Origin: Acholoe squamosa
Taxonomy: Eukaryota > Annelida > Polychaeta > Phyllodocida > Polynoidae
Reading direction: 5' to 3'
NCBI GenBank assembly: GCA_949317995.1
Contig: OX439040.1
Span: 73,815,972 to 73,879,971, forward strand
Length of the DNA: 64,000 bases
Made by a program: the position numbers and the translations under genes
Notes under the pieces: model-generated
What the model was told of the DNA's origin: nothing
Database searches by the model: none
The model's input: only the letters and a program-made list of their open reading frames with translations
Shown: piece by piece, positions 24,368-64,000 of the stretch
How positions within the stretch are numbered: the stretch's first letter is position 1
How the letters are laid out: each line of letters opens with the position of its first letter

Positions 24368-24838
24368 ATGGGAAACAAACCTGTTTTAGGATATACTAGA
24401 TATGATTCCAATACATTTCCTCTAAGCAAAGAAAAAACTAACGCTGTAGGATTTAATTTATATAGTGCTTTCAGTTATATAATTCCAGCCAAAGAAAAAT
24501 GTTTAATTGAAACAGGCATCAAAGTTGCTGTCCCTACTGGGTATTATGCACGTATAGCACCATTAAGTGGGCATAGGTTTAAGTATACAGATGTTAAGGC
24601 AGGAATCATAGACAATGATTACAGAGGACAAATTCATATCCTTTTTTTAAATTTTGGTGAAAAAGAATATAAAATAAATTGTGGAGATCCGATTGCACAA
24701 CTTGTGTTGGAAAAAATATATAATATTACATTAAAAGAATCTAACAAACTCAAAGATACTCCTTATTCGAAAATATGTTTCCAATTAAGACACAGCAAAA
24801 TATATGAACAATGGCGTAAAGAAACACATATGTCCTAA
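24368..24838 (+). CDS. Degenerate dUTPase paralogue, probably inactive
   Basis: A 156-residue protein clearly related to the dUTPase at 22076: GFNLYSAFSYIIPAKEK, then PLSGH, GIIDNDYRG and GDPIAQLVLEKI. Motif 1 has Asn for the usual Asp (position 30), motif 2 has Leu for Arg/Lys and His for the following residue, and the glycine-rich motif 5 is missing. The motif 3 Asp is kept. Loss of motif 5 and changes in motifs 1 and 2 predict no dUTP hydrolysis; a signalling or decoy role, as in herpesvirus dUTPase-related proteins, is an inference. Confidence 0.75.
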   Translation: MGNKPVLGYTRYDSNTFPLSKEKTNAVGFNLYSAFSYIIPAKEKCLIETGIKVAVPTGYYARIAPLSGHRFKYTDVKAGIIDNDYRGQIHILFLNFGEKEYKINCGDPIAQLVLEKIYNITLKESNKLKDTPYSKICFQLRHSKIYEQWRKETHMS

Positions 24839-25632: not shown

Positions 25633-25684
25633 ATATAGGTCTTCTTTGGATATTTTTTTAGAAATATCCAAAGAAGACCTATAT
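25633..25684. repeat. Perfect 23-bp inverted repeat (hairpin) at the broken end of the Gypsy pol
   Basis: Arms 25633-25655 and 25662-25684 are perfect complements around a 6-base loop. Arm core: GGTCTTCTTTGGATAT. It coincides with the point where the integrase frame of the retroelement ends prematurely. Confidence 0.9.
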
Positions 25685-32600: not shown

Positions 32601-32782
32601 AGGATTGGATCCAACAGAAAGGCGTCAGGTGACGAGTCAGATGACGGAACAGTCTGCTGCTGGTCTGGGGCTGCTGCTGGTGCTGCTGCTGCTGCTGCTG
32701 CTGGTGGGGGCGCGTCTAGCCCTGGGGATGTAACGGCATCTTCTGTAAATGGCTCTTTGGTTGTTGTCTCACTTTGATTCAT
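29672..32782 (-). CDS. gag: Gypsy Gag polyprotein
   Basis: A 1,036-residue Gag. The long N-terminal half is proline/serine/threonine-rich and includes a polyalanine run encoded by GCT/GCA-type repeats. A coiled-coil-like region follows (ESMM-type helices around residues 400-490). The capsid-like core has AAKFITEFKFWIRNVYPRH, AAQWFFANIF and EQYLEDMTLLLANSNLEE. The C-terminus is arginine/serine-rich and then strongly acidic. There is no CCHC zinc knuckle; the arginine-rich part may replace it in RNA binding. It ends in TAG, in frame with pol. Confidence 0.85.
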   Translation of the reverse strand: MNQSETTTKEPFTEDAVTSPGLDAPPPAAAAAAAPAAAPDQQQTVPSSDSSPDAFLLDPILPPSFLTPKPTPVSRNKTFSSTIDDNNTGTQTSTPLTSQAPGLNLTLPGFSSAESPVLRLAGLPGETSSTPVASPSHLDLDSHLEPRSPRLQAALESIPTLPRQPATGTDTTSPPAGFTHPNPSELTWDSYIPPDPTLPPESDLWRQRIRSAINRWRSVRTNRAQEAPAPNTHSTQRGESPSAFLGRINRILEEQWPDATTSSDPFRSYLNTPTPEATPTPPNTLNTPNLDTGATSSDYTPLPSPRRRRAQSTSPLRRQTPPYYRVLRSIDSAVTGAIGATSQIFRRRATPYCTSEDSLTSEDDPEITFPHLRRGRMDSRTPTTHPPRYDQDDLARNLVRECTQAVSDSLSNLLTGQINLLSAEIQRVGQEHTSHLNRVNDRLDNMDTWRAQMERDLIQSHRRAAEDNADVLRRSEMMAADISERINRNMDDVRREICSVYGHRPPLQPPPAHSSPANLGIPHASQTPSAPTMPGYQHAGNDIRLSPPSAFQNNTPAGLLGATPTSHRSTRDDIPSVSATRQMAAPATTPVQANANTLGTVAGSIYIPAHARTPSNMPIPMQTLYSQSTGAHPTGHRQAYDHSTPMIPMIGQSHIASGLGQMTLSDDKLSSAQLSSFNKPETFDKPTEYRSAAKFITEFKFWIRNVYPRHQHLHTSCLYTFLKGRAAQWFFANIFEKPIMYDNEAVYAAFLKRFGTPDPATISKGYRNRTQQPDETVEQYLEDMTLLLANSNLEESVQVDYLINGLKPQIKSVILPDMPKTIADAEKMALTQELRIEAHKMAMAGTQQADLCAMNSNKNNSGTPRKENQYSNNKKYDRYPSGNYNRQYETRTQNGSSNQSDPNYRRFRRSRSQDASGGRNKPPQQRARSQSASRNPTSKDDNKIVITVATAPANNKQVSFKKVTHEADIINSNSPPYQNRRTRDPTPSRFPRNNNESDPTEPEGNADLHNIDEDNHDHNDGDEDFIDEDTDYDDEE

Positions 32783-40109: not shown

Positions 40110-42053
40110 TATAGTGACAATACTTGGCGATTTACACTTGGCACACCGTTTTCTTGGACGTAGTAAACTATTTGGCACCTGGTTATAACTACGCCAATTA
40201 TCTACTAGCTTTCACCAGAAATCAGCACAAAGGTCACTTTCCTTACGAATGGATGACATCTACCAGGAAACTGGAAAACAGAACATTACCACCAATATCT
40301 GCATTTGACAGCAAACTGACTGGCACCAAGATGCCTGAATCTGACTACACCGAATGTGAAAAAGTTTGGTCTGAACAGAACATGCAAACTTTCAGAGATT
40401 ACTTGATCTACTACAACAACAAAGACGTGAAACCCTTCATAGAGGCACTTAATAATCATCCTAAATTTTTCAGCACCCGCAACATTGACATGTTTAAAGA
40501 CGGAATCTCTCTTCCGGGTGCCATGCTGATAAGGGAACACAAGTACGGCAAAGAAGTGAGAATGTGCGAGCACATTCTGGGTGTAGACGCTAACTCTCTG
40601 TACTTGCGCTGCATGAGCGAAGCATACTGCCCAGGTGAGACGACCCGAGGCCGAGTTCAAACTGAAAATTAGGCAAAGACACTCTAAGTCCGCTTTAGAG
40701 TGGTTACATTACGTGGAGCACACCCACAGCGTGAAACTTCGCCACGCTTTCATCAGAGGGGAGGTATCTCTAGGTTGCCGAAAAATTCGCGTAGATGGTT
40801 TTCACCCGTCCTCTAATACCGTTTTCCAATTTCACGGGTGTTGGTTCCATGCTCATGAGTGCATACCGCTGCACAGATATCCGTGTGCTTCAGACAGGGA
40901 CGAGAAACTTGACAGCTAGAGTAACCGCTTACTTAAAAGCTCTAGGTCACAAGTTGATCGTCGTATGGGAGTGTGAATGGAGAAAGATGAAACGTCAGGA
41001 TCCATAGGTTCCGAACAACACTGGAAGGTCGACGACTTGAAAGTGGTTCGAAATCCCATGACAGAGAGTGACATCATATCCTCCATGAAAGACGGGAAAA
41101 TGTTCGGTTTGATTCAGGTGGACATTACTACTCCTCCTCACCTACGTGAAATTCGTTTTCAAGAAAGTGACCATTTCAAAATCTGACATAGGAACTCACA
41201 TGTCAGACTTTGCGAACAACGAAAACCTGACGAACGCACCTCAGAGATCCTTGATAGGAAGTTACCACGGAAAAAAGATTCTCTTGAGAACACCTCTTCT
41301 TAAGTGGTATTTGGATCATGGTTTAATAGTCACCAAAGTGCAGATGTTCATAGAATACAACCCTTCGCCGGTTTCGCAGACGAAGTAACTGCGGCGCGAA
41401 GACGTGGTGATGTAAACGCGAACGAGAAAATTCTGTCAGACTGTTACAAGTTGATGGGAAACACCACATAAGGTAAAACAATTTGCAACAAAGAAAAACA
41501 CACCACTGTTAAATACGCTAGAGGTCGAACCTTCGAATTTTTGACCAATTCGTGGTGGTTCAAAGAGGGTACAGATTTGAGCACAGATCTCTTTGAAGTT
41601 GAACTGCAACCGAAAACAGTCAGGAACAATCTTCCTATTTAAATAGGCTTCATGGGGTACCAGTACGCCAAGTTGAAAATGTTAGATTTCACGTTCGACT
41701 TTTTGGATAAATTTATCGATCGACGCGATTACGCTCTTTGTCAAATGGACACTGACAGTCTTTACATGGCTCTCAGCGGTGAATCGTTAGCACTTAGAGC
41801 TTTTCGTAAAGTGAAAACCGAAGGTGTCAAAGAATGGATCCCCCTCACTTGTCAGAAACGATATGTTCACGATCAGAGAACTCCGGGTCTTTTCAAATCT
41901 GAGTGGGAGGGTGATGGAATTCTAAGTCTCAACTCCAAGACTTACATTTACTACGATAAAGACTTGATAGGTGAAAGAAAATCAAAGAAGGGTGTGATAA
42001 AAAAACAAAACGTTCAAGAACCCAAAGACTTCTTGGATGTTCTTTTGAAATGA
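40110..42053 (+). pseudogene. polB: Compact-element copy A: C-terminal half of protein-primed DNA polymerase B
   Basis: Fragments in changing frames read as one polymerase. They include a thumb/TPR-like start (VVNYLAPGYNYANYL), motif A (VDANSLYLRCMSEAYC), a motif B region with an internal TAA just before GKTIC (about 41470), and motif C (QMDTDSLYMAL). The last reads to KDFLDVLLK and a stop. The N-terminal half is missing at the left. It parallels the - strand copy B, so it is the same family in opposite orientation. Dead by several frameshifts and stops. Confidence 0.8.
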
Positions 42054-42249
42054 GTGACGACGAGTCCTTTAGAGTTATGAAAATTAAAAATAATAAAATT
42101 TTTTTTTTTTTAAATAACTGTAAAGGGAAAAAAAGAAAAATGTAGATGTAGATAAGCCGGTGAGATAATATCCTTTGTTGTTGTATTAACTTCATCTACT
42201 ACATCCACCGACTTACCTCGTGTATCAGTGTTGAAAAAAAACAAGACAA

Positions 42250-42649
42250 TGTGTACTTGCGACCCCATTTTCACTTGGGAAATAATGGATGCATCAGATA
42301 TTTTGTTCTTTAAGGCCCCTCTGTTAAACCAAGGTGTTCATAAACTGTTCATTTCTAATGCTGTATTTGATTCATTGAGTGTGTGTTTCAAAGATTTATT
42401 TCAAAGAGTGGTTGGTACTAGCACAGATAGAGCTATAGGAGTATATCAATTACATAACGAGAACACATGTGCTTGAGTCAAAAGGCGATATACAATAGAA
42501 TCGATCAACATGTTGCTTTCTCTTTTGGAAGAGAACTCAGACTTCTTGAGTCATTGCTCAAAGAATTCGACTCTTTTTGTCAAAAGTGTGTCGACCGAAT
42601 GTTGTGTAGCAAAGTTCCTTATCCCGGTGTACCAGCTGCTCAACTGAGA
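42250..42649 (+). pseudogene. Copy A: cysteine-containing ORF after the polymerase
   Basis: Begins CTCDPIFTWEIMDASDILFFKAPLL-like, passes a stop near 42475, and continues in another frame to a cysteine block (CQKCVDRMLCSKVPYPGVPA). Copy B has the same order at 45027-45660 on its own - strand. Repetition in two copies argues it is a real gene of this family, of unknown function. In copy A the frame runs directly into the terminal repeat, so the 3' end was lost in a deletion. Confidence 0.5.
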
Positions 42650-42894
42650 AGCCAATCAGAGGGCGCCATTTTGGCAGCACACCACAGGGGGTTTGCATCA
42701 CATGACCATTTTGAATTTCCCGCCAAAAGGGAGGGTTCTGATTGGTCCATTTTGACGCCACACCACGGGGGTCTAGGTCACGTGACCCCCCATTTGAATT
42801 TCCTGCCAAAAGGGAGGCCTCTGATTGGCTGCATCCCCAGTGAGTAATATCCTTAGATTAGCTATAGTCCCGTTCTGATACATTATATACTACT
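42650..42894. repeat. Right terminal repeat of copy A (distal part)
   Basis: Matches the outer about 245 bp of the copy B terminal repeats. It has CCAAT/ATTGG boxes, GCCAAAAGGGAGG blocks (one CCCGCCAAAA), CACGTG, and the terminal 50-60 bp motif ending ...ACTACT at 42894. No second end of copy A was found in the window. Confidence 0.8.
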
Positions 42895-44167
42895 AATATC
42901 AACTTAATTCAAAAAGCATTTGAATACAAATATTAAGCTCTTTCATTTGATATATAGATTGTGGAGCTCCCTTCAGGTCCTGATTTTTGGCTGTCATCGC
43001 TATGCCTTGTTTACTGCTGGTTGACCTCAATATTACCGGAAGCAACAGGTGGAATGGTTTTAATGCAGACCTGTGGTGGCGCTGCAGTCAGGTATGAAAC
43101 AATCTCCAGCACCGCACACCAATGGTGGTGGGAGATTGATACCGTCGGCAGAGACACCCGCGCCTTGGTATCTGCTGAGGTCGGCAAAACTGCGGACATA
43201 TGCAGTGGTGCCTACATTCAGAAAAGCAAAGATGTCTGTACATCTAGTATGTTGCTAGGACCTGGTGAGTAGGCTTGTAGGCAGAGCTCTGGATAAGCCT
43301 AGTGGTGAAAAAGTAAATATATATTGAATAATTGTAATACCCAGAATCATCCATTGACACTATTGTCATTATTCATGATTTCAGACAATAGCACTTGAAA
43401 AATCAATCGCATGCCATTGTTGTGCATGGTAGACTCAGCATTCAAAAATTGATAAGTGAAGTAGGCCAACTGTCATATGAATGTTAAATACCAGCAGTCT
43501 TTCATGATCTATAACAGGTCAAATGGAAAAGATGCATTTCACTATGTAATTGACAAGTAATCCCTCAAACAAAGCACTGGTGGAGTTGGCTGCCTTTGTG
43601 CTCAGTTGCTCTCTTTAGACTATACCTCACATCTTTTCTGAAATTTATGCTCCTCCAAATGATCATTATTTATGCCTCTGTATTTGGTACACTGTCATTG
43701 AAATAACGGTACAGTCCTCATCTAAAAGTTGTCAGAGGTTTGTCGTTAGTTTCACAGAGATTCCTTGTACATTTGCATACCACCATACTACCACTTTTGG
43801 CTTCTTGTAAAAACCAAACTTGTTCAATGCTATACAATTACGGTGTTCCAGCGTTCACATGGTTTTACGATGATCCCAGGTAGAGTCAACAGTTATTTTT
43901 AGAGTGTAGTCTTGTATGCAATCAGGACATTGCAGTGGCAGATTTAGAGGGGGCATGTAGCGCGCACCCACTCTTTTTTGCCAGTACTTAAGAGTTTAGG
44001 CCGTGCCCCCTCCTTTTCAAAATCCTGGATCCGCAACTACGATTGTCTGATTTCTCTGCATACAAAGCTTTGACTCACATGGCCTTCCAAACTTGACATT
44101 TCCAAAGTCACTCATATGTTTGTTTATTTAGTTTTACGTGTGAGGTCCATCGAGGAACTCAGATATT
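42895..44167. other. Presumed host DNA between copies A and B
   Basis: About 1.27 kb with no convincing gene. A short reading frame starting at about 43003 meets a splice-donor-like CAG/GTATGA near 43091, so part of a host exon is possible. A dispersed repeat starting TTTGTTTATTTAGTTTTACG (about 44120-44167) ends next to the insertion site of copy B. Confidence 0.35.
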
Positions 44168-44173
44168 CACACT

Positions 44174-44906
44174 AGTAGTATAGTAGGTATCGGAACGGGA
44201 CTATAGCTAATCTAAGGATATTACTGACTGGGCATGCAGCCAATCAGAGGCCTCCCTTTTGGCGGGAAATTCAAATGTGGGGTCACGTGACCTAGACCCA
44301 CCCCCCCAAAATGGACCAATCAGAGCCTTCCCTTTTGGCGGGAAATTCACGTGACTCAAACCCCCTGTGGTGTGCCGCCCTCTGATTGGCTGGCTGTTTA
44401 GGTCACGTGACCTCTGTTATGTAAATAAGGTCACGTGACCCTAATTTGAATGGACCAATCAGAGGTCGTCATTTTCGTGGGAAATTTGAAAAATTTGGTA
44501 ACATCACTTTATTTTTTTTTTAAATTTTGCCAAAAAAAAAGAAAAAAAAGGAGACCTCTGATTTGTTGGCTGACCTGCTGTCTGGCAGGCTGCCTGTCCA
44601 CACGTCATACCGTCAGTCAGCTGTATGCAGCAAGCAAGTAGTTACGTGGTGACCTTATTAGCATAAACAGGTGTGGTTTATCATGTAGATGAGGGTGCGA
44701 GAATAGTGAGATATCTTTTATATGAATTAAAAAAAAGGCAAGCTGAAAGCTTGCCAAGAAAAAAAACAAAAAAAAAGCCGGGAAATATTTGGGGAGGGGG
44801 GCCCTTGGGGTAGGGGGGCCTTTGGGGGAACCATTGGGTTGGGGGGGGCCTTTGGAATGGGTGGGGCCCCTTTTTCTTTAGTATACCTGCCCCTTTGTAG
44901 GGGTGG
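44174..44906. repeat. Left inverted terminal repeat of copy B, promoter-like
   Basis: From the tip inward: the 50-60 bp terminal motif, then a cluster of CCAAT boxes (44240, 44316, inverted 44385, 44455), E2F-like TTTTGGCGGGAAA (44257-44269, 44333-44345, weaker at about 44472) and CACGTG (about 44284, 44348, 44404, 44431). A GGCAAGCT/AGCTTGCC hairpin (44737-44755) and a G-rich stretch complete it. The right end at 55772-56356 is its inverted, shorter match. Such sites drive S-phase genes in animals; use here is inferred. Confidence 0.85.
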
Positions 44907-45026
44907 GTTTAGTAAAACTAAAGACAAATTTATTTCATTTTTTTATTTTGATAAATAATATTTACACTCCATTATTCACAAGTTGCTAAATGCAAGTTCA
45001 CACTCTCTACATAATATAGACGAATA

Positions 45027-45660
45027 TCAGAGAGAAACATGACAGAACTCACACATTGAGATGTACACATTCGACTTTTGTTTGTCATAATTCAGACTGT
45101 ACATGGTGTAATCTTGGTGTACAACTTTGGAGCAAGTACCCTCTTGAAATGAAGGACAGGTGTTAGCCATATTTCCCATCCACATCTCATCGATATCACA
45201 AGTGAAATCCACTGAGGAGCTATACCAAGTACTCCATTCAGTTTGTCTGGACATGATACTTCTCAGTTGAGCAGCTGGTACACCGGGGTAAGGAACTTTG
45301 CTACACAACATTCGGTCGACACACTTTTGACAATGACACATTTTTCTCCAGAAGTCTGGGCTCTCTTGCAAAAGAGAAACTAACGTGTTGATCGATTCTA
45401 TCGTATATCGCCTTTTGACGAAAGCACATGTGTTCTTGTCATTGAATTGATATACTCCTATAACTCAATCTGTGATGCTACCAACCACTCTTTGAAACAC
45501 ATCTTTGAAACACACACTCAAAGAACCAAATTATATACATCATTAGAAAAGAACACTTTATGAACACCTTGGTTTAACACCGGAGCCTTAAAGAACAAAA
45601 CATCTGATGCATCTATTATTTCCAAAGTGAAAATGGGATTGCAAGTTCTTGAACTTTTTT
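45027..45660 (-). pseudogene. Copy B: cysteine-containing ORF after the polymerase
   Basis: Two - strand frames carry IFTLEIIDASDVLFFKAPVL and then CHCQKCVDRMLCSKVPYPG ... MCEFCHVSL. The first is fused to the polymerase end by a small deletion near an A-rich tract at about 45655-45670. A frame break falls near 45480. Cysteine pairs suggest a zinc-binding protein; function unknown. It runs the same way as PolB and faces the left terminal repeat. Confidence 0.55.
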
Positions 45661-46037
45661 TTTTTTTTATGACACCCTTCGCACTCCATTTCTTTGATTT
45701 TCTTTCACCTGTCCAGTCTTTATCGTAGCAAATGTAAGTCTTGGAGTTGAGACTTAGAATTCCATCGCCCTCCCACTCAGATTTGAAAAGACAGGGAGTT
45801 CTCTGATCGTGAACGTAGCGTTTCTGACAACAAGCGAGGGGGATCCATTCTTTGACACCTTGGGTTTTTATCTTTATGAAAAGCTCTAACTGGTCATCGC
45901 ACACCGCTGTAGAAATCCAGTTTCGTTTCTCTCTGAAGTACGATTCTCTCAGGTCGGGTTTCACGAGTTTGTCCAACGATTCGCCGCTGAGAGCCATGTA
46001 AAGACTGTCAGTGTCCATTTGACAAAGAGCGTAATCG

Positions 46038-49000
46038 TGCTGGCTAGAATTTAGCCAGGGGCTCCTTTATTTTAATTCTTTATTTTTTGTAAATAAATTA
46101 TTGTCTACTTGTATTTGTTTATGTAATGGCAACAACTACACGATTAAACGATTTTCTAAATATGAAGGGCTTGAAAATGGAACATCTAAATACACGAAGC
46201 ATGTTTAACAAAAGGCAGGAAATATTTGACCATTTAGATGGTGCTGATATAGTCGGAATGCGTGAAACTTGGTTACATGAAGACTATGATGATGACTTAA
46301 TAAACTGGGAAGGCATGAATTTGTTCAGGCTGGACCGAAAAAGAAAGAAAGGCGGAGGTTTAGCAGTTTACATTCGAGATGACATTAATCTTGATGTTAA
46401 GATACGCAATGACATTAGTTGTAGTAACAAGGATATTGAATGTCTAGTATTAGATCTAGTCTTGAAGACACATACTTTACAATTGGTCACTCTATATAGA
46501 CCTCCTTCTGGCAAGATAGATAAGTTTCTTCTACATTTGTCTCGTGTTATGGAAATTGCAGATAAAGAAGGGCTTGAACAATGGATTATGGGGGACATAA
46601 ATATAAATACTTTGCGTGAAAAACTACCTAGTACTGTAAAGCTAATCGATGCTTGCCGATTTAACAGTTATCATAAACTCATTAATCAGTGCACTAGACC
46701 CTATAAGATTATTGTATCATGTTTAGATAATATATTGTTTAATTACAATGAGTCTATTACATCTGGTGTCTTGAATTTTTTAGTAAGTGATCATCTGCCT
46801 GTGTTTGCTGTAAAAACAAGAGAGAAGATTGACTATATCAAAAAGAAAGTTTGGGTGAGAAAGTACAAAGGTTATGATGAAGAAACTTTCAAAGAGTGGC
46901 TAATAATGGCAGACTGGGATGTTTTTTATGAACTGCACAACCCCGATGGTGCTTGGTCATTCATTGAAAACTTGATAATTGAATACTTAGATGAGTACTG
47001 TCCTTGGTCTGAAATTGAGATTGTGGACAGATGAAATAAATGGATGACACATGACATCTTGTCAATGATAAATGAGCGTGAGGACAATGTGGAAATGTTT
47101 TCGAAAATTAAAGATGATTATTATCTCAATAAAGCCAGGCAGCTACATTGTAAAATTAATAAGGCTATCAGGTACTCAAAGGCCAACCAGGTCAAGTCTG
47201 CACTGGAGGAGGCTAAGTCTGACCCAAAGGGATTCTGGAGAGTTTTAAATGGAGTTTTGAAACCAGAGGTGCAAATTGACCCTCCAGAATTGATAGGTGA
47301 TGATGGTTTTATCAAGTCAGAGCACGAATCTGTAAATCATTTAAATGATTATTTCTCAAATATTGGTGCTAAACTATCTTCAGTTTTCACAGATAATGGT
47401 TAATGGAAAAAATAATGTATTGCCATTTAAATGAAATTCTAAATAAGAAAAATGTTCTTTCTGCAAAACAATTTGGTTATCGATCAGGACTGGGGACTGC
47501 AGTCTTCAGACTCCTGAGTGATATCTATGAAAATAGAGATAGAGGCCATTTGACTGGAGTTTGTTATCTTGACCTACGTAAGGCATTCGATTGTGTTAAG
47601 CACGCCTATCTTGTTGAAATTTTAGGACAACTTGGTTTACATGACACAACACTCAATTGGCTAATGAGTTACTTAACTGGGAGAAGCCAGTATACTAAAA
47701 TTGGTTCCTTTGTTTCTAATGAAGCCCCAGTACGATTTGGTGTCCCGCAAGAGTCTGTATTGGGACCGCTCTTATTCATACTATATATAAATGATGTCAG
47801 TGATGTTCTTGCTGATTGCAAACATTATCTTTATGCAGACGACTTGGTAATATACAGCTCAAACAACAAAATTGAAACTATAACCAATAGGTTACAAACG
47901 GCATTAAATCGATTACAATCCTGGTTTGTAACCAAGAGGCTTACTGCTAACACGGATAAATCCAAAGTTGTGTGGTATGGTTCATGCAAAAAGTTACCAA
48001 AGTCCAGGGGCCAAAAACTATATTTGTATAACAAAGAACTTGAAACCCTGAATAACTACTGCTACTTAGGACTAAAGTTAGACAGTCTATTGAGTTTTGA
48101 ACCTGCGCTAAAGGATTTAAATAGTAAAATTAACTACCGTCTTTTTAGATTCAGTAAATTCAGAAACATCTGAAAAAGTTGCTGTAACAGTCTATAAAAC
48201 CACCATATTGTCTGTTTTTGATTACGCTTGTTTTGCCTTCGAGGGTGCTAATGAAGGCCTGCTAAAAAAGTTGGACAGAATGCAGAAGAGAGGCCTTAAA
48301 ACTTGTTTCAGAGGTTTGGATCTTAATGAAGAAGAGCTCCATGTACGGGCTAATATTCCACTCCTGATGAGGAGACGACAAGAATTATTGCTTAGCTTCA
48401 TGTATAAATTATCAAGAAATCCAGATTGGGTTGATGAGGAAGTCAGAAGGCCAGGTATGAGGTCCGAATCAAAGATCAAGATAGTCATTCCCAGAGCACG
48501 TAACATGGGATTCAACAACTCGCCGCTATATAGATGAGTTGAGTTAAGGAACAATCTCTGAGCTGATGTTCAACACAGTGAAAGTAAACTTAAATTTAAA
48601 GCAAGAATTAGGCAGATACAAGACTTGTCCAAGATGATGTCAATGGGTGATGAGCTGAATGAGCTGGATGAGTAAAATGAAAAAGATACAGTTTAGGGAG
48701 CTGTTGAAAGACTACACCTTATCCTGATTGAGTAGAGGGAGCTGTTGTTTGCTGACTACACCCTCTACTAGACTTTATTCATGTGGAGCTGTTGAAAGAC
48801 TACACTGCATGAATTTCATCCATGAGCTCACAGTGACTATACTCTCATGCTGTATATCTGCTGATCATCTGTTTAAGATATGTTTTGTACCTACTGATCT
48901 GTCCATATATATCCTGTTGGTATAGTGTAATACATGCTAGTATAAAACTTGTTGATAGTAACAAACTGGTGTACCATGCCTGCTGCCCTTCTTTTTGAAA

Positions 49001-49253
49001 TTTTATTGTAAGATTATGGAGGTTGCTATTTGTGTACATAGTATATACTGTTTGTTATATAGATTTCATTTTTTTGTTTATGTTATTGTTCTCATCCTTC
49101 ATTGTATAAATTCCCATCTTTATTCATTGAACTATGTGCAAACAACCACTTAATGTAATAACTGAACGAGGATTGACATTATTGTCTAATTTTACCACTT
49201 TCTGTATGAATAGTGACTTGACAATAAAACATTTTCAAACCTCAAAAAAAAAA
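46038..49253 (+). mobile_element. LINE inserted in copy B polymerase, with internal deletion
   Basis: Starts with a small hairpin (CTGGCTA ... TAGCCAG, 46040-46058) and ends with AATAAA (49223-49228) and a 10-A tail (49244-49253). Comparison with polymerase copy A fixes both edges to within a few bases; a clean target duplication is not evident. It differs from the LINE at 6.5 kb in sequence and tail type. Confidence 0.85.
46126..48537 (+). pseudogene. LINE endonuclease and reverse transcriptase, fragmented
   Basis: Endonuclease part (46126-47034): MRETWL, LYRPPSGKID, MGDININTL, SDHLPVF. A linker frame (47044-47403) ends after SNIGAKLSS. RT frame (47403-48173): EKIMYCHLNEIL, GVCYLDLRKAFDCV, PQESVLGPLL, YADDLVIYS. 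Further C-terminal sequence lies at 48208-48537 after a shift. The first RT segment (the usual NYRPIS region) is absent between the linker and RT frames, so an internal deletion of roughly a hundred or more codons is inferred. Confidence 0.85.
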
Positions 49254-50160
49254 TATCGATAAATTTATCCAAAAAGTCAAACGTGAACTCTAACATTTTC
49301 AACTTGGTGTACTGGTACACCATGAATCCTATTTGAATAGGAAGATTGTTCCTGACTGTTTTCGGTTGCAGTTCGACTTCAAAGAGATCTGTGCTCAACT
49401 CTGTACCCTTTTTGAACCGCCATGAATTGGTCAATAATTCAAGGGTTCAACCTCTAGTGTATTTCACAGTGGTATGTTTTACTTTGTTGCAAATTGTTTT
49501 ACCGTACATGGTGTTTCCCATCAACTTGTAACAGTCTGACAGAATTTTTTCGTTCGCGTTTACGTCACAGCGTCTTCGCGCCGCGGTTACTTTGTCTGCG
49601 AAACTGGCGAAGGGACTTCTAGGAAAGTATTCTATGAACAGGTGCACTTCGCTGACTGTTAAGCCGTTATCGAAATACCACTTAAGTTAAGAAGAGGTGT
49701 TCCCAAAAGAATCTTTTTTCCGTGGTAACTACCTATCAAGGACCTTTGAGGGGTATTCATCAGGTTTTCGTTGTATGCAAAGTCTGTCATGTGAGGTCCT
49801 ACATCGGATTTCGAAATGGTCACGTTCTTGAAAACAGGAGTCATTTCTTTGAAGTATTCTCTTAGGTGAGGAGGAGTAGTAATGTCCACCTGAATCAAAC
49901 CGAACATTTTCCCGTCTTTCACAGAGGATATGATATTGCTCTCTGTCATGGGATTTCGAGCTGCTTTCAAGTAGTCAACCTTCCAGTCAGATCCTTCCTG
50001 CGGATCCTGGTGTTTCATCTCTCTCCATTCACACTCCCATACGATGATCAACTTGTGACCTAGAGCTTTTAAGTAAGCGCTTACTCTAGCTGTTCTGTCA
50101 CGTTTCTCGTCCCTGTCTGAAGCACACGGATATCTGCGCAGCGGTATGCACTCGTGAGCG

Positions 50161-50217
50161 TTTGTTTGTTTGTTTAGTTTTACGTCTGGGAGCCATCGAG
50201 GAACTCAGACATTCAAC
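50161..50217. repeat. Short dispersed repeat inserted in copy B polymerase
   Basis: TTTGTTTGTTTAGTTTTACG... through CCATCGAGGAACTCAG is absent from polymerase copy A at the same point. It closely matches the sequence at about 44120-44167 beside the copy B insertion site. Probably a fragment of an abundant SINE-like family. Confidence 0.6.
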
Positions 50218-50474
50218 TGGGACCAACACCCGTGAAATTGGAAAACAGTGTCTGGGCGGATTTTTCGGCAACCTAGAGATACCTCCCCCGTTAAAAGCGT
50301 GGCGAATTTTTCACGCTGTGGGAATGCTCCACGTAGCGCAACCACTCTAAAGCGCTCTTAGAGTGTCTCTGCCTGATTTTCGGTTTGAACTTGGTCTTGG
50401 GTCGTCTCAACAGTCTGTGCAGTGTGCTTCGCTCATGCAGCGCAAGTACAGAGAGTTAGCATCGACACCTAGAA

Positions 50475-50990
50475 TGTGCTCTCACGTTCTCGCTTCTTTG
50501 TCGTACTTGTGTTCCCTTATTATGGAAGAACCCCCGACCAGATTTTTTTTTATCAGAGAGTGGAGGTGGGAGTCGAACTGGTGGAAGGTCACGAACAGTG
50601 TCTCTGTGGTTTGAAAAAGGAACTGTAAAGTCAAACCCGGAAGGGAGATTCCGTCTTTAAACATGTCAATGTTGCGGTCCCTGAAAAATTTAGCGTGTTC
50701 TCGCTTCTTCGCCGTACTTGTGTTCCCTTATCAGCATGGTACCCTTCTCGTGAAATCTGTGGAAGATTATGGAAGGACCCGCCGTACTTGTGTTCCCTTA
50801 TCAGCTTGGTACCCTTCTCGTGAAATCTATGGAATATTATGGAAGGATCCCCGACCAGATTTTTTTTGATTAAAGAGTAGAAGTGGGAGTCGAACTAGTG
50901 GAAGGTCACGAACAGGGTCTCTGTGGTTTGAAAAAGGAACCGTAAAGTCAAACCCGGAAGAGAGATGCCGTCTTTGAACATGTCGATGTT
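50475..50990. repeat. Tandem internal duplication in copy B polymerase
   Basis: The segment containing CGTACTTGTGTTCCCTTAT ... CCCGACCAGATTTTTTTT ... GTCAAACCCGGAAG occurs twice, with a further short repeat (TACCCTTCTCGTGAAATCT twice) between. The duplication lies in coding sequence and adds to its decay. Confidence 0.75.
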
Positions 50991-53238
50991 GCGCTCCCTG
51001 AAAACCTGAAAAATTTAGCGTGATTATTCAGTGCCTCTATGAAGGGTTTCATGTTTTTGTTGTTGTAGTGGATCAAGTAATCTCTGAAAGTTTGCATGTT
51101 CTGTTCGGACCAAACTTTTTCACATTCGGCGTAGTCAGTTTCAGACATCTTGGTACCAGTAAGTTTGCTGTCAAATGCAGATCTTGGTGGTAGTGTTCTG
51201 ATTTCCAGTTTCCTGGTAGACGTCATCCATTCGTAAGGAAAGTGTCCTTTGTGCTGATTTCTGGTGAAAACTAGTACATAATTCGCATAGTTATAACCAG
51301 GTGCCAAATAGTTTACTACATCCAAGAAAACAATATGTCGAGTGTAAATCGCCAAGTATTGGTTACTTCTCTTTATGACGCTGAATTCTTCATTCTCTCG
51401 CTCTTTGGAGGAGAAGAACGAGTGAAGCTGTACTTTGATCAGATTTAAGTTATAACGCCCCAAGTTGAAACCTACAACCGGAACACATGTCTTAAAAGCC
51501 TCTTCTTCAGTTCAACTAAAGGGTGTCTTGTTCGAGTTTCATTGAAGTCGACACCAGGAGGACTGAATGCCTCCTCCAGGTGGAGAGCTTCAGCCATCAT
51601 CTCATCTAACTTCACTAACGTCGGTCGGTAAAGTTCTAGCACTGCTTCCCCGATGATTTTGGCGGTGTCGTTTATGTAATTCAAAACTTTATCCAACAAG
51701 TCTGAGTCTGTGTCGGATTGTCTCAGGAAGCAGACCGGACCTTCGCGACCTGGAAAGTCGATGCGATGCTAGCTGACAGAGGGATGTGTTCCCACAGGAC
51801 TGACTCGTGTTCGGTCGACAGTTCTTTGGGTGGTCTGAAGAAAGCTTCGAAATTGAAGGTAATTTTGTAAGGGTATATTTTGAATTTTCGTCGGGAGGAA
51901 AAATGGAAAAATCTGCTAGTGCTTCGAAAACCGTTTTCGAATTTTGCGTAGATTCCACCTACGTATTTCAAGGTGACTTGTCTGCAAGGGGAAAGTTGGT
52001 TCCTGTGTCTTTTCAGTAAGAAATTAGTCATGAACGCTGACTTACACTCAGGACATTCGTATATGGCAGCGTATTCATTGAAATCCATAACGATGGACAC
52101 ATGCAAACCGTGTGTCTTGGACAGGTGTAGGTTGACTTTACCTCGGGCAGCCGATGTTTTGGAAGGCGGCCTGATCAGGGTAACTCGGTTTTTCACGTTC
52201 TGACCCCTCACTTTACGGGTGGTGTAAACCGCTATTTGTATGTGGAACAAGTTCTCTAACGCGGGTAAGTCGCTGATGACCAAACCTGGAAAGGTTTCAG
52301 GATTGGCAGTGGAATCGAACTGATGCAACAATTTTGAAAAGTGTTTGCCAGTCTTGTATAAGTGAAAGGATATGCAGTGAAAGACACATAACTTGTCCCT
52401 GTTGGGAAAATCTAACACACCTCCTCTCTTTTTAAGTCGACCCGAATGGGTAACCCTACCTCCTATGGGAAATTCTCTGGGTCCCATGTAAATGCAAACG
52501 TTCAAATTGGTTGGAAAAAGAACTTTCAACTTGGTGTCAGAGTCGCAAAGTTTTCTGTACTTCTTCGGAAGTGACAGTGTTTTCCATGAGGGAGAGAAAC
52601 TCTTCCAAAGTTTCTAAATTAGTTATGGTGGGGAGGGGTTGTAAAAGAGATGCATTGTTTTGGGAGGCGTGAAAGTAGCGTAGCTTGTTTCTGTTTTCTT
52701 GTGTTGTAAAATTAAGACTACTGACAAACACACTTTGTATCTGAATCTTTGTGTGATGTGAATTTGACGCAGGGTATCTACAGCGTCACTCAACTCACTG
52801 GTTGGTAGTCTTAAGTTTGTTACACTCACGCGACTCCTGTGCGCCCTGACTCCTGTTTGTATTGCGGGTCAATTCCTGGTGAACATTTCCTTACCCTCCG
52901 GTACAGTGCGTATTATCGGAGGAATAGTTACTCCGTCGAGAGATTCGCATCGACAGGTGATTTTTTTTGCAATTTCCTTTGCCGCAAAGAGGACAAAATT
53001 TAGGTATTACCCTACATTTTTTTCACATGTCTGTTGTAATTGTACACCCTTTTAAATTTTTTGAAACACTTTTTCGCAGATATGATAATCCATTTTCACT
53101 GAGTTACTTATATGTGAAGAGAGTTTTTTTTTCAATATTTTTCATTTATCTAGCTATCTATTTACCTCTACACCTATATACGCAACATACCTACACAAAG
53201 TTTATACATCTACATTCACGTCATATAAAGCATATGTC

Positions 53239-53378
53239 AGTACTAGCTCACACATGTTTCAATCAAAATTTATCAAGAAATTCAAGAATAATCTCTTTTT
53301 TGTCACCCAGTACTAGCTCACACATGTTTCAATCAAAATTTATCAAGAAATTCAAGAATAATCTCCTTTTTGTCACCC
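53239..53378 (+). repeat. 70-bp tandem duplication upstream of the endonuclease-only LINE
   Basis: Units 53239-53308 and 53309-53378 are almost identical (unit starts AGTACTAGCTCACACATG). The start of the unit matches copy C near 63305, so it is partly element sequence duplicated when or before the LINE inserted. Confidence 0.85.
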
Positions 53379-54416
53379 AGTTCAGAAATGTACAAATCTA
53401 AGTTTGAGAGAGGCTTCTCAGTTTTACATATGAACACTCATAGTATAAGAAACAAAATCTCAGGTTTAAAAGAAAAATTAACTGATAGCAACATAGATAT
53501 TATACTTTTCTCTGAAACTTGGTTAAACTCATTAGATAGTTCAGAAATGTACACTTTTCCTAGGTATAACTTTTTTAGACTTGACAGGATTAGTATTTTT
53601 AGGGGTGGAGGACTTTGTGCACACGTCGATGAAGCCATATCATGTACTAATGAAAAATGTGGTTTTCTAAATCGAACAAACAAGGATATTGAAATCCAAT
53701 GGTTATTCTCTATAAAAGGTTCTAGTAAAAAAGTAATAATATGCAATGTATATAGACCTCCTTCAGGAGATCTGACTAATTTTTGTAATATGATACAAGC
53801 ACTGTTTCTACAAATAGAGAATCTTGACTCATATGAAATATATGTATTAGGTGATTTTAATATTAATGTAATAGGAAACTCTAGAGAAAAAAGACAATTG
53901 TATGAGGCATTTGATAATTTTCATTTAACCCAACTAGTAAATCAGGTTACCACGTCTTCTGGAGCTAACACTTGTATTGACTTAATTTTCACAAATTGTA
54001 CCGGTATTACAACGTCTGGTCGATTGAACATTCACCTATCTGACCATCTACCTGTTTACGTATTAAAAAGTAATCTATATGTAAAACATGGATTTAGAAG
54101 TTTTCTAGGAAGATCCTATAGGAATTTTGATAAGGAAAAGTATTTACAAGATTTGTCAAACTGTAATTGGACACACTTTGATAATAGCACTGACCCTACT
54201 GAATGTTGGAATATTCTGGTAAATCAAATGAAATATATGCTCCATATTCAATGTCCAGTAAAGAAATTCAAAATAAAAAATAAATGACAATCTTTCTGAA
54301 ATCCATGTATTATGCTCACCTGTTTTTATATAAGGAAACCTTGTGTATGTATATCAAATTATAATGGATCAAATTTCTATGGCTAATAAAAGTTTAAATT
54401 GTTTCAAAAAAAAAAA
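53370..54416 (+). mobile_element. Endonuclease-only LINE derivative
   Basis: A 305-codon frame (53370-54287) encodes only an apurinic-type endonuclease: HMNTHSIRNKISGLKE, SETWLNS, VYRPPSGD, LGDFNINV, CIDLIFTN, SDHLPVYVL. A stop follows, then about 120 bp of 3' sequence with AATAAA (54385-54390) and an 11-A tail. There is no RT. The endonuclease frame is open and could still be translated. The domain order shows it came from an endonuclease-RT LINE by loss of RT. Confidence 0.8.
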
Positions 54417-54566
54417 GTTCGTCTAAATAGGATTAGAAAAACTTCAAAGAGTAGTCGGTAGCAATTACACACCCCTGTTAACAAAAGGAGTAGTAAAAAT
54501 TAAGAAATCTCATAATACCTTAACGAGCGAGCCTCCCTCCCACCTGTGGATTATGTCACGTGTGAA

Positions 54567-55162
54567 ATGAAATTTGTATATAGCAATCATTTGCTTCATC
54601 AAATAGGAAGGCTGTTAGTTGCATCTTGGAAGAAATTGGGAATCTACTTAGACATCCCCTATGAGCGTCTACAGGAGATGGTCGTTATCAGGATGGTGCA
54701 GGATATGTGTATGGAGATGTTCCAAACTTGGTGGTCTAAAACTACCAATCATGCCAGATGGGGAGAACTCCACCACGCCTTCATGAGTGTTCATCGACAA
54801 GATATGTTACTTCAGTCGCAGAGCTTTTTCAAGATGCACAAATTTGATTACAACAACCCCGACCAGTGTTTAATGGAGAGGTATTTTGTCACCATGTCTG
54901 GATCTCTATTCAGGGAGTGGAAAGATATGGGAACGCATTTAGGTTTGTCGTCTGAAAAGCTAAATAGAATCGCTCAACAACCGGAACACAAGATATGTCT
55001 CTCCACACCTTCAAAGTGTTGAAAATGTGGCAAGCTATACCCGACAGTACACATCATCAGCTCATCCGAGTGCTGATGGATGACATGCAGAGGTTTGACA
55101 TGGTCAGATATATATTGCTTCACTTTGAAAACATAGAAAAAGAGATGATACATGGAGAGTAA
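54567..55162 (+). pseudogene. Copy B: gene for a protein with two death-like domains, one frameshift
   Basis: The ATG at 54567 opens a frame with SWKKLGIYLDIPYERLQEM ... MFQTWWSK ... HRQDMLLQSQ (repeat 1), then EWKDMGTHLGLSSEKLNRI (repeat 2). Near 54985-54993 a one-base shift moves the rest (VLKMWQ ... FDMVRYILLHF) into another frame that ends at 55162. Layout and residues parallel the Polinton protein at 20655, including GIYL and VLKMWQ. It would act on host death signalling by analogy. It lies head-to-head with PolB and just before the BIR gene. Confidence 0.7.
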
Positions 55163-55406
55163 TTGTGGAAGGGCATGGTGACTTATGTAAAGGAGGCAGA
55201 GGTGTGCACCACGGGAATCCCATCTTAAGTCGCTACACAGGAACGTGGTGGTGGAGATAAAAAGTATGCAGCTGGAAAGGGGATTAAGCACATCTATATA
55301 GATCACTCTCATTTGCCACCTCGCCTACCACTGATACATCCACATTCGACACAGCTACTACCACTGTCGTCACTGCTCGCACCACGTTACCTACCTACCT
55401 AAGAGA

Positions 55407-55724
55407 ATGGTCAAGTACATACGGTTCGTCGATTTATCAAGGAGACTCAACACTTTCGACACAACTATGTGGAATAAACCCCGTCCTTTCACAGAGAAAC
55501 TCGCCGCCCACGGATTCTTTTACATTGGAGGTAAGGACCATGTTCAATGCTACCAATGTGGTGCCGCTATACACACATGGTTAGAAAGTGATGACATCAC
55601 CGTGGAGTATTTCAGACATTCTCCTACCTGTCCGTTGGCCTCGGAAGTTATGAATTTAAGTCCACAGAGCAAAATTTTGCTGACGGCTATGTTTTCTAAC
55701 GCTGTAACGTATTCCAGTGAATAA
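55407..55724 (+). CDS. Copy B: single-BIR (IAP-like) protein
   Basis: A 105-residue protein. One BIR domain spans about residues 12-77: RLNTFDTTMW, LAAHGFFYIGGKDHVQCYQCGAAIHTW and EYFRHSPTCPLA give the C-x2-C-x16-H-x6-C zinc set. There is no RING or CARD. Such small BIR proteins occur in insect and mollusc DNA viruses and can bind caspases or IAP antagonists; the target here is unknown. The frame is intact and ends inside a copy of the element's terminal motif, which supplies the stop codon. Confidence 0.85.
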   Translation: MVKYIRFVDLSRRLNTFDTTMWNKPRPFTEKLAAHGFFYIGGKDHVQCYQCGAAIHTWLESDDITVEYFRHSPTCPLASEVMNLSPQSKILLTAMFSNAVTYSSE

Positions 55725-55771
55725 TATCCTTAGATTAGCTATAGTCCCGTTCCGATACATACTATACTACT
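55714..55771. repeat. Extra copy of the terminal motif inside copy B
   Basis: Nearly identical to the outermost 55-60 bp of the family (GTAATATCC-type core, TTAGATTAGCTATAGTCCC, ending ACTACT). It sits exactly between the BIR gene and the inner edge of the right terminal repeat. Confidence 0.85.
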
Positions 55772-56356
55772 CGCTCCTACCAAGGGGCGGGTTTACTAAA
55801 GAAAAACGGCCCCACCCACCCCAAAGGCTCCCCCAACCCAATGGTACCCCCAAAGGCCCCCCCACCCCAAGGGCCCCCCTCCGCAAATATTTCCCGGCTT
55901 TTTTTTTTTTTTTTTTGGCAAGCTTTCAGCTTGCCTTTTTTTATTCATATAAAAAATATCTCACTATACTCGCACCCTCATCTACACAATGAACCACACC
56001 TCTTTATGCTAATAAGGTCACCACGTAACTACTTGCTTGCTTGCTGCACACAGCTGACTGACGCTATGATGTGTGGACAGCCAGCCAGCCAACCAATCAG
56101 AGGTATCTATTATTAAAAAATAAAGTGACGTCACCAAATTTTTTAAATTTCCCACCAAAATGACCTCTGATTGGTCCATTCAAATTAAGGGAGGGCTCTG
56201 ATTGGTCCATTTTGGCACCACACCTAGGGGGGGTTTAGGTCACGTGACCCCACATTTGAATTGCCCGCCAAAAGGGAGGCCTCTGATTGGCTGCTTGCCC
56301 AGTGAGTAATATCCTTAGATTAGCTATAGTCCCATTCCAATACATACTATACTACT
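55772..56356. repeat. Right inverted terminal repeat of copy B, promoter-like
   Basis: Inverted match to 44174-44906. From the inner edge: C-rich stretch, the GGCAAGCT/AGCTTGCC hairpin (55917-55935), CCAAT boxes near 56090, ATTGG near 56172 and 56205, a CACGTG near 56241, a CCCGCCAAAAGGGAGG block near 56265, then the terminal motif. Shorter than the left repeat by about 150 bp because some promoter modules are missing. Confidence 0.85.
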
Positions 56357-56704
56357 CACACTCATATGTAAATTATTAACATATGAGTGTTCAACTCATA
56401 TGTTAATCATTTTTTTGCTAATCACCATGCGACAGTGATACAGTACAGCAAAAATACACAGCAACAATACAGTAAGGGTTCAGAACAGCATTCGTCCGAC
56501 TTAATCACATACCACAAATGAGGATGTAAGGAAGTTTTGATTTTGGACAGCAGAGACGCATTGATCCTACAGCATTGAACCTACAGTCTCTCCAGTTTAT
56601 CGGGTTTTAGAAAGCAAGGAGGCTTAGCTGTAATGTGGAAGTTCATCTAAGAGAGATTGAACCTCCCATGTTTACCAGTTTTTACATACAGTGACTAATA
56701 CAGA

Positions 56705-59560: not shown

Positions 59561-61571
59561 CTATAGTATATAAGTTCTCAGAGTGAGAGGAAAGAAAGCA
59601 CCCCTGTTCGTACAGAGTCCGTAAGGGTAAAGATTTAAGTCATAACGCCCCAAGTTGAAACCTATGACTGGAACTTGGCGGAGATATCTCAAAAGTCTCT
59701 TCTTCAGTTCAGTTCTTGTCCCAGTTTCATTGAAGTCGATGCCGGGAGGACTGAAAGCCTCCTCTAGGAGGAGAGCTTTAGCTATCCTCTCATCTAACTT
59801 CACTAACGTTGGCCAGTAAAGTTCTAGCACTGCTTCCCCGATGATCTTGGCGGTGTTGTTTATGTAATTCAAAACTTTATCCAAAAAGGGGTCTGAATCT
59901 GTGTCGGATTGTCTCAGGAAGCAGACCGGACCTTTGCGACCTGGAAAGTCGGATGCGACCCTAGCCGACAGAGGGACGTGTTCCCACAGGACTGACATGT
60001 GTTAGGTTGACGGTTCTTTGGCCGGTCTGAAGAAAGCTTCGAAATCGAAGGTAATTTTGTAAGGGTACCGCGAAGCGGTACGGGAGTGCGCTATGATGAT
60101 TGCATTTGCCCCATGTGATGAGGTCTCACAATACAAAATTAGTGAATACTGACATTAACGGCGGGAGGCGTTTTTTTACGCGGTCACAACTGCATTTCTT
60201 GTTGAATTTTCGTCGGGAGGAAAAATGGAAAAATCTGCTAGTGCTTCGAAAACCGTTTTCGAATTTTGGTAGATTCCACCTACGTGTAGGGGTTCGTTCC
60301 CCCGTCGGTTGCGCAGAGCCTTCAGAGGGACTGTTCACTTGGTTGTGTCACTCCCCCTATGTATAACATACCGATCCAGGGTAGTTGGAAGGTGGAAATG
60401 TCAGTGGGGCCGTGAGTTTGAATCCCGGTGTCTCCAGAGACGTTTTCACTGACCACTACATACGTATTTCAAGGCAAGGGGAAAGTTGGTTCCTGTGTCT
60501 TTTCAGTAAGAACTTAGTCGTGAACGCTGACTTACACTCGGGGCATTCGTAGATGCCAGCGTATTCATTGAAATCTGTTATGAGGGACACATGCAAACCG
60601 TGTGTTGCGGACAGGTGTAGGTTGACTTTACCTTGGGTGGTCGATGTTTTGGAAGGTGGACTGATCAGAGTAAGTCGGTTTTTCAGGTTCTGACCTCTCA
60701 CTTTACGGGTGGTGTAAACCGCTATTTGTATATCGAACAAGTTTTCTAACATGGGTAAGTCGCTGATGATCAAACCTGGAAAGGTTTCAGGCTTCGCAGT
60801 GGAATCGGACTGACGCAACAATTTTGAAGCATGTTTGCCGGTCTTGTATAAGTGAAAGAGTATGTAGCGAAAGACGCATAACTTGTCCCTGTTGGGAAAA
60901 TCTAACACACCTCCTCTCTTTTTAAGTCGACCTGAATGGGTAACCCTACCCCCTATGGGGAATTCTCTGGGTCCCATGTAAACGCAAACGTTCAAATTGG
61001 TGGGAAAAAGAACTTTCCACTTGGTGTCAGAGTCGCAAGGTTTTTGTACTTCTGCGGAAGTGACAGTGTTTTCCATAAGGGAGAGAAGCTCTTCCAAAGT
61101 TTCTGAATTATTTAAGGTGGGGAGGGGTCGTAAAAGAGACGCATTGTTTTGGGAGGCGTAAAAGTAGCATAGCTTGTTTCTGTTTTCTCTGGGTTGTAAA
61201 ATTAACCCTACTGACAAACCCACTTTGTATCTGAATCTTTGCATGATGTGAATCTGACGCATAGTATCTACAGCGTCACTCAACTCACAGGTTGGTAGTC
61301 TTAAGTTTGTTACACTTACGCGACTCCCGTGTGACCTAACTCCTGTTTGTATTGCAGGCCAATTCCTGGTGAACATTTCCTCAGCCTCCTGTATAGTGCG
61401 TATTATAGTCACTCCGTCCAGAGATTCGCGTCGACAGGTGATTTTTTTGCAATTTCCTTCGCCACATAGAGGACAAAATTTAGGTATTACCCTACATTTT
61501 TCCATGTGTCTGTCATAATTGAACACCCTTTTAAATTTTTTGAAACACTTTTCACAGATATGATGATCCAT
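59561..61571 (-). pseudogene. polB: Compact-element copy C: N-terminal half of DNA polymerase B
   Basis: Read right to left from about 61571: N-terminal fingers (CEKCFKKF ... HMEKC, CPLCGEGNCKKITC), an OTU-like region (GGVLDFPNRDKLCVF), finger CPECKSAFTTKFLLKRH, then exo I region FDFEAFF near 60040 (Asp intact, unlike copy B) and exo II (FNLGRYDLNL). A 386-codon frame (61616 to 60456) remains open, making this the best-kept N-terminus of the family. Two insertions (about 60066-60202 and 60286-60460) break it, and everything after exo II is lost. Confidence 0.82.
60286..60460 (+). mobile_element. tRNA-related SINE-like insertion in copy C
   Basis: A 175-bp segment absent from copy B at the same point, flanked by TACGT (60281-60285 and 60461-60465). 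It contains an A-box-like GGGTAGTTGGAAGG (about 60379) and a B-box-like GAGTTTGAATCC (60414-60425) at tRNA-like spacing, the internal RNA polymerase III promoter of SINEs. No poly(A) tail is obvious. Confidence 0.6.
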
Positions 61572-61650
61572 TTTCTTATATGTGAAGAGAAAATGTTTTA
61601 TTTCAATATTTTTCATTTATCTATCTATCCAACTAGCTTTCCTTCTATTA

Positions 61651-63239: not shown

Positions 63240-64000
63240 ATAGATACGCAACATACCTACACAAAGTATATACATCTACATACACATCATATAAAACATA
63301 CGTCAGCACTAGCTCACACACGTCTTCACTCCATTATTAGATCATCAAAGGGTAGGTGGAAGAAAAAAAAAAGTTCCAGCAGGATCAAAGTCGGCTTTTG
63401 ATAGCTTTTAGAAAAGAGCTCTAATCCCTATGATCACAGAGATCCTCACTTGGTAGGGTATCTATAAATCTGATTTCACCTGCCCTCCTCAGGTAAACCA
63501 AACACGCAATTACACACCCCCTGTTAGCAAGGGGAGAAGTAAAAATTAAGGAATCTCATAATACCTTAACGAGAGAGCCTACCTCACACCTGTAAAGTGG
63601 ATTAAGCTAATTATCACAGTTTTAACTCTATTTAATCCCACCAAAATACAGTTATCACAACACCTTTCCACCTGTTTTATGTCGACAGATCTAAAAGATA
63701 AGTCGCTACACAGAATGAAAGCAAACACCCCTAATTTCACCAAATACACTTGTCACAGCGCCTTTCCTCCTGTTTGATGTTAACAAATTCATAAGGCTCA
63801 TGCTGATAAGGCTCTACACAGAAAGGAAAAGGTGGTGGTAAGTATCCAGCTGGAAATATGCTTAGATCTCCCTATATAAAGCAGCCCAATTTCTCTTGGA
63901 AGGATATATCACTGCTGACCACTACAACTACCGCGCCTACCACCACTGCCTTTACCATCACCAGCACCACCTACCCGCCGGCTGCCTGCCTACCTGCCCG
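63240..64000 (+). other. Copy C right arm: control region leading towards a BIR gene position
   Basis: Sequence matching copy B's region between PolB and the BIR gene resumes here (CATACCTACACAAAGT, GCAATTACACACCCC, CATAATACCTTAACGAG, AAGTCGCTACACAG). The death-domain gene of copy B is absent. A good TATATAAAG lies at 63873-63881 in the position upstream of copy B's BIR gene, so the copy C BIR gene, if kept, would start just beyond the window. Confidence 0.6.

Follow-up and report, generated by a model that had tools for sequence, protein, structure and literature searches.

The 64,000-nt stretch analyzed here (the window; contig C6, positions 73815972-73879971 of the 1.48-Gb genome of Acholoe squamosa, in which C1 and C2 are other contigs) contains three copies, A, B and C, of a small Polinton-type element whose ends are shared with a capsid-bearing family. 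Copy B (44174-56356) is flanked by a perfect 6-bp target-site duplication (TSD), CACACT, at 44168-44173 and 56357-56362, and its end sequences are AGTAGTATAGTA and TACTATACTACT. The terminal inverted repeats (TIRs) finish in AGTAGT and ACTACT. The left one is about 730 nt long (44174-44901, plus strand) and the right one about 580 nt (55776-56356, minus strand), with an identity of 95.0% over the 159 outer aligned columns and 92.5% over the 411 inner ones. Four copies of the 25-nt end motif are present in the window, where 0 would be expected, and the outer 86 nt of the left TIR recur in other element types with these ends. This confirmed, as claimed in a sequence-only reading of the window, that the compact element is real and has both of its ends.

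Apart from two pieces of long interspersed nuclear elements (LINEs), copy B contained only a broken PolB gene, a tail open reading frame (ORF), a Death-domain gene and a BIR gene. The PolB pieces lie on the minus strand: the N-terminal pieces at 51472-53145, the palm and exonuclease region at 49192-51511 (with a local duplication and frameshifts), and a piece with motif C (MDTDS) at 45518-46066, the last part of which is already tail-ORF stretch. The tail ORF piece (45027-45464, minus strand), earlier called a cysteine ORF, lies between PolB and the TIR. On the plus strand are the tandem Death-domain gene (54516-55162; Pfam E 3.5e-8), which is in two frames and broken, and the BIR (inhibitor of apoptosis domain) ORF (55335-55724; Pfam E 1.3e-16). 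The 3' end of the BIR ORF is altered in copy B, where it terminates within an extra, misplaced copy of the 58-nt terminal motif (55714-55771, minus strand); in copy C this motif is absent and the BIR ORF is longer. Since the extra motif precedes the real right TIR, the right end of copy B is rearranged.

The first LINE, with nuclease and reverse transcriptase (46038-49254, plus strand), is a clean insertion in PolB, and copy A is uninterrupted at the same point. The second, a nuclease fragment (53264-54461, plus strand), lies between PolB and Death, where the interval in copy C is only about 175 nt long. A short sequence, roughly 56 nt in length, was present at 44117-44169 and, within the PolB region of copy B, at 50161-50216. 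It was also found in unrelated loci (L013, L033, L034 and L043).

In copy B, the Pfam model DNA_pol_B_2 touched only one of the PolB pieces, weakly (E 0.0066). Stronger evidence came from the homologous piece of copy A, which matched the PolB of an ordinary Polinton at the left of the window (tblastn, E 8.5e-11), from blastp matches of several pieces, and from alignment of the MDTDS motif. The left-hand gene was not named by Pfam, and we took it to be PolB from its motifs together with these matches. The homology and motif C, seen in pieces only, point to a family B polymerase that would be protein-primed. An AlphaFold model of the N-terminus of the copy C PolB was too poor to use (pLDDT 31.5). 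The Death gene of copy B matched the tandem Death gene that the ordinary Polinton itself carries (20655-21275; E 2.9e-24).

The tail ORF was found as a separate ORF in one copy (L020), in which the PolB frame stops and about 224 stop-free codons follow before the TIR. The corresponding frames were interrupted in all other copies examined. The stretch was also considered as the C-terminus of PolB; this was rejected because it starts beyond the PolB stop, hence the name. PolB, Death and BIR around two LINEs were found as read from the sequence alone, and the separate cysteine ORF was backed by one copy.

Relatives in public databases were few for PolB. A protein database search returned one relative of the PolB N-terminus and 18 Death-domain relatives (P0002-P0019), the latter on unnamed public contigs without genomic context. 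Scans of IMG/VR with PolB, Death and end-motif queries, and of GTDB with end-motif and Death queries, gave nothing confirmed.

The ordinary Polinton (351-24838) carries a PolB split by a LINE, an integrase, an ATPase, a major capsid protein (MCP), a protease and an ORF that we take, from its sequence features, to be penton-like. With 23 ORFs as tblastn queries, its integrase, MCP and penton had no match in 38.3-64 kb of the window at E up to 1. The best values for the ATPase (E 0.39) and the protease (E 0.16) were chance-like, and one ORF without known function matched in part, at 24% (E 0.001). For scale, PolB (about 28-30% identity) and Death (29%) were matched clearly in that search.

Copies A and C were collinear with copy B over the parts they retain, as had been read from the sequence, with identities by segment of 82-98% and 87-99%, respectively. 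Copy A has PolB pieces at 40118-42053 and a tail-ORF stretch at 42156-42651 (both plus strand), the latter truncated directly by the TIR, and a single end of 245 nt (42650-42894, minus strand). Copy C has PolB pieces at 59561-61616 (minus strand), including an open 386-aa N-terminal ORF at 60456-61616, and the PolB-Death intergenic region at 63241-63593 (plus strand); its left half and left end were not found. Its Death, BIR and right TIR continue beyond the window in the 10-kb stretch fetched directly past the right edge (L009, 19-2291).

This right arm consists of Death, a 145-aa BIR ORF and a clean TIR that starts about 120 nt past BIR and finishes in ACTACT, followed by GTAAGT. The integrase, ATPase, protease, MCP and penton of the ordinary Polinton had no clear match in L009 at E up to 1e-3, so the absence of capsid genes read for copy C held when its arm was followed to the end. 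Since this arm is complete, the PolB-Death-BIR-TIR arm is present in B and C at different sites. Loss of a capsid module after BIR was rejected for copy C, with the TIR within about 120 nt of BIR, and so was a simple deletion derivative confined to B, the layout being shared by the right arm of C and by further copies. The three copies lie within about 26 kb (window 40118-64000 and L009 1-2291) as an insertion cluster, and the spacers between them do not match one another.

The 25-nt end motif was searched through the whole genome with up to two mismatches allowed. It was found at 592 places on the plus strand and 575 on the minus strand (1167 in total), and the reversed control gave 0. From 100 of these places that were listed, neighbouring plus and minus pairs spanning less than 40 kb were taken as spans (n=15), of which eight were fetched, in pieces, and examined for genes. 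Five of the eight contained PolB, Death and BIR between two ends, one contained capsid genes, and two contained neither. No capsid, ATPase or protease match was present in the five at E 1e-4, the level at which gene absence was scored in the fetched spans. The further copies with the same layout and ends looked for in this search, by end motif and PolB, were thus found.

The five PolB-Death-BIR spans were C1:20.13 Mb (9.1 kb; TSD GGGATG, perfect on both sides), C1:123.04 (8.9 kb; TSD matching at 3/3 bases read), C2:104.02 (8.5 kb; 1/1 base read), C1:15.78 (21.5 kb, with a Ty3-type retroelement in the middle; 2/2 bases read) and C1:3.10 (25.3 kb, with unassigned sequence in the middle; TSD unreadable). 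The span with capsid genes was C1:96.57 (TSD 3/3 bases read). The remaining two were C2:19.41 (C2:19407512-19415526; L024 and L025), which is 8.0 kb long with the same ends, no recognised gene and a TSD of 5/6, and C1:19.32, which has retroelement ORFs, a right end not placed exactly and no TSD found. Two closer pairs of end motifs, 1.85 kb apart (C1:87105761-87107610) and 0.85 kb apart (C2:60792630-60793483), are perhaps miniature derivatives.

The 386-aa N-terminal PolB query gave at least 114 matches in the genome, copies B and C included, after 107 of 2048 first-look candidates were scored; the others were 62-88% identical. An MCP piece from C1:96.57 gave at least 151 matches, with 150 of 2444 candidates scored. 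Within the stretch for which motif places were listed, 5 of 13 PolB places lay within 10 kb of an end motif, and so did 5 of 18 MCP places. Random placement, in 1000 draws, gave means of 0.07 (maximum 2) and 0.11 (maximum 3), respectively. Both lists of places are partial; in them, none of the 114 PolB places was within 25 kb of any of the 150 MCP places, and one was within 40 kb.

The capsid-bearing family was read in three copies at the tail-ORF side and at three protease-side ends, one of these copies being covered from end to end. That copy (C1:96.57) contained protease, MCP, penton and ATPase genes, and each of its ends has the shared outer 86-88 nt. Two further copies, read at the same side, contained an integrase (E 1.8e-48 and 3.2e-32) and an ATPase, and one of them a penton. 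The tail-ORF stretch adjoined the TIR in 3/3 copies at that side, and the stretch from the ATPase to the tail ORF was conserved among the three (about 80-90% in aligned segments).

No PolB exonuclease or palm was detected in the three tail-ORF-side copies with small-family, ordinary-Polinton or other-family queries, and no PolB core at the three protease-side ends. A single 15-residue match to a PolB-frame piece in L043 was the 56-nt sequence that recurs in unrelated loci. The sequence-only reading had held that the small copies would be internal-deletion derivatives of an ordinary Polinton if longer elements were found that share their ends and add capsid, ATPase and integrase. Such relatives exist, but no PolB core was detected in the copies read, and for this reason they do not look like parents of simple deletion derivatives.

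For the outer 86 nt, identity was 94.9% over the 78 pairs formed by 13 small-family ends, 94.6% over the 10 pairs formed by 5 capsid-family ends, and 93.5% over the 65 pairs that join one end of each family. Measured against copy B, the tail-ORF DNA of five small copies was 83-87% identical, and that of three capsid copies, one of which is in fragments, 66-77%. Uniform ends with a diverged tail ORF are expected if both families are served by one set of priming and integration proteins, or if the ends recombine. Composite ends were seen at two places. In L043 (1032-4131) a small-type TIR comes immediately after a capsid-type end, with BIR and another TIR behind it, and in copy B (55714-56356) a terminal motif is followed by a second TIR. 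This suggested end fusion or template switching.

The TIRs of the five PolB-Death-BIR copies differed by 0.042-0.119 (Jukes-Cantor, 244-516 columns), and these copies therefore look like old insertions. Between copies B and C, PolB had 131 changes in 490 codons, and 49 were synonymous against a neutral expectation of 33.5 (p 0.003; 0.013 under a stronger transition bias, kappa 4). The 468 codons compared for A and B gave 51 synonymous changes against 31.4 expected (0 of 2000 simulations; 0.001 under the stronger bias). The ratio of nonsynonymous to synonymous rates (dN/dS) in the PolB pieces was 0.29-0.58, and the stop counts between copies showed no departure from neutrality. The excess of synonymous changes argues that PolB was useful while the copies diverged. 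PolB is under purifying selection between copies, and neutral decay after insertion dilutes the signal. The constraint on Death and BIR between B and C was weak (p 0.17 and 0.056), and the pooled value (p 0.029) was only suggestive of joint constraint.

Other PolB families are also present. PF03175 gave 206 matches in the genome, and many of those listed lay in stop-free PolB frames of about 1426-1497 aa. Three such loci were read over 30 kb each (L011-L019), and 3/3 contained ATPase, integrase and MCP. One PolB piece of copy A (40617-40919) was 43-49% identical to PolB of these families, and the remaining small-family PolB pieces had no match to it at E 1e-3. Since only one piece matched, the three loci are not close parents of the small family. 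The TIRs of the window had no blastn match in the three loci, the ends of which may lie beyond the stretches read.

Elsewhere in the window, the ordinary Polinton has two dUTPase-like ORFs, one recognized by Pfam (22076-22744) and one by eye (24368-24838). No left end was identified for it, and the stretch L010 had no match to the window. A Ty3-type retroelement (25679-32782) has gag-like and pol ORFs of 1036 and 1314 aa.

We interpreted these results as two complementary families with common ends, of which the small one is integrated, and perhaps packaged, in trans, and we give this reading a probability of roughly 55%. The small family looks old; it is multi-copy and 8.5-9 kb long, with the order TIR, tail ORF, PolB, a short divergent region, Death, BIR and TIR. 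PolB reads outward, and integrase, packaging ATPase, protease and capsid genes are missing from the copies read. With its own PolB, the element would prime and copy its linear DNA from the ends. Insertion with a 6-bp duplication would use the integrase of the capsid family, which shares the outer 86 nt. Integration in trans, also favoured by the sequence-only reading, is the most likely route. No RVE integrase match was found inside the PolB-Death-BIR copies read, save a weak one in L038. The capsid family may in turn depend on the small-family PolB, and may package both. The proteins encoded by Death and BIR would serve to dampen the cell-death response.

Several points weigh against this interpretation. 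The PolB genes of the window copies are broken (in copy B the Death frame as well), and no activity was observed. The capsid copies read are few, and C1:96.57, the sole one covered end to end, is without the Polinton integrase seen in two others; its integrase-like match belongs to an inserted Ty3-type element. The match in L038, in the middle of the C1:3.10 copy (26%, E 8e-8), may be of retroelement or Polinton origin. Because the lists of PolB and MCP places are partial, a complete element may have escaped the search, and the PolB that copies the capsid family might come from other complete Polintons in the genome. The common ends could come from recombination between the families, as the composite ends of copy B and L043 would allow, and the constraint on PolB may in part predate the loss of capsid and other genes.

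If the families depend on each other, they would form a bipartite Polinton: integrated families with common ends, PolB and anti-death genes in one and integrase and capsid genes in the other, neither self-sufficient, as a genome-resident multipartite DNA virus derived by complementary deletions. We put this forward tentatively, at somewhat under even odds. The dependence might instead run one way, with the small element a satellite using the integrase (perhaps also the capsid) of its sister, and the capsid family copied, independently of it, by the PolB of another complete Polinton. The other PolB families with long open frames, and their three loci with ATPase, integrase and MCP, would supply such a polymerase. 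In the outer 86 nt, however, the capsid family is nearly as similar to the small family as the members of either are to one another, and the window TIRs are unmatched in the three loci, though the ends of these may lie outside. We consider a one-way dependence unlikely. We hold it similarly doubtful that both families are dead internal-deletion derivatives, amplified in trans by a complete Polinton now lost, rare or missed. The families share ends and tail ORF and do look like one layout deleted in two complementary ways, gene damage was seen in the PolB copies examined in detail, and vertebrate Mavericks are reported as 96% degraded (excerpt of PMC8097293). Against such an origin, PolB was constrained during divergence, each type occupies many places (at least 107 and at least 150 scored), and PolB and MCP places, in the partial lists, kept more than 25 kb apart.

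The sequence-only reading had favoured a virion-free lifestyle between Polinton and plasmid. A self-replicating, plasmid-like element, integrated by an unrelated host or retroelement integrase, would fit the lack of capsid gene matches in every PolB-Death-BIR copy read, and cytoplasmic linear plasmids have reportedly arisen from (proto)polintons through loss of the morphogenetic module (excerpt of PMC11071308). This lifestyle is not supported, an abundant capsid- and integrase-bearing family with the same ends being present in the same genome, and we regard it as very improbable. Since this sister family has capsid genes, the small element is no less likely to be packaged in trans.

The small element resembles Polintons/Mavericks (Eupolintoviridae, adintoviruses) in its 6-bp TSD, AGT-type (AGT)n/(ACT)n ends, TIR length, matching PolB and related Death gene. 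Unlike them, it is without integrase, ATPase, C5 protease, double jelly-roll MCP and penton, and it is about 8.5-9 kb long; for vertebrate Mavericks, two gene modules, TIRs of 46-1447 bp and an intact size of 12.7-24.6 kb are reported (excerpt of PMC8097293). Like the cytoplasmic linear plasmids described in part of PMC11071308, it would keep PolB and lose the morphogenetic module, but its copies sit in the chromosomes, flanked by TSDs, alongside a same-ended capsid family. In the copies read, complementary gene sets on pieces with common ends recall multipartite viruses such as the bipartite parvovirus AdSDV (excerpt of PMC10267136); the pieces here, in contrast, are integrated multi-copy genome residents known from sequence. 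The comparison with bidnaviruses made in the sequence-only reading may serve as an analogy only. They have a Polinton-descended PolB on a small element (excerpt of PMC11071308), but are described as parvovirus-like with a capsid gene of their own (excerpt of PMC11071296), and the small element has none. No description of a bipartite Polinton was recognised in the literature searched, most subscription papers lying outside its coverage.

On the weaker reading, this is a capsid-less, PolB-bearing Polinton lineage with apoptosis-related genes at no fewer than about 100 places in one genome. If the two families complement each other, a multipartite double-stranded DNA virus would be caught here as genome residents, the parts of which can be counted and dated. 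The splitting of viral genomes by cheating is theory (excerpt of PMC10159356), and the origin of a multipartite genome by complementary cheating would then be directly testable in a sequenced genome.

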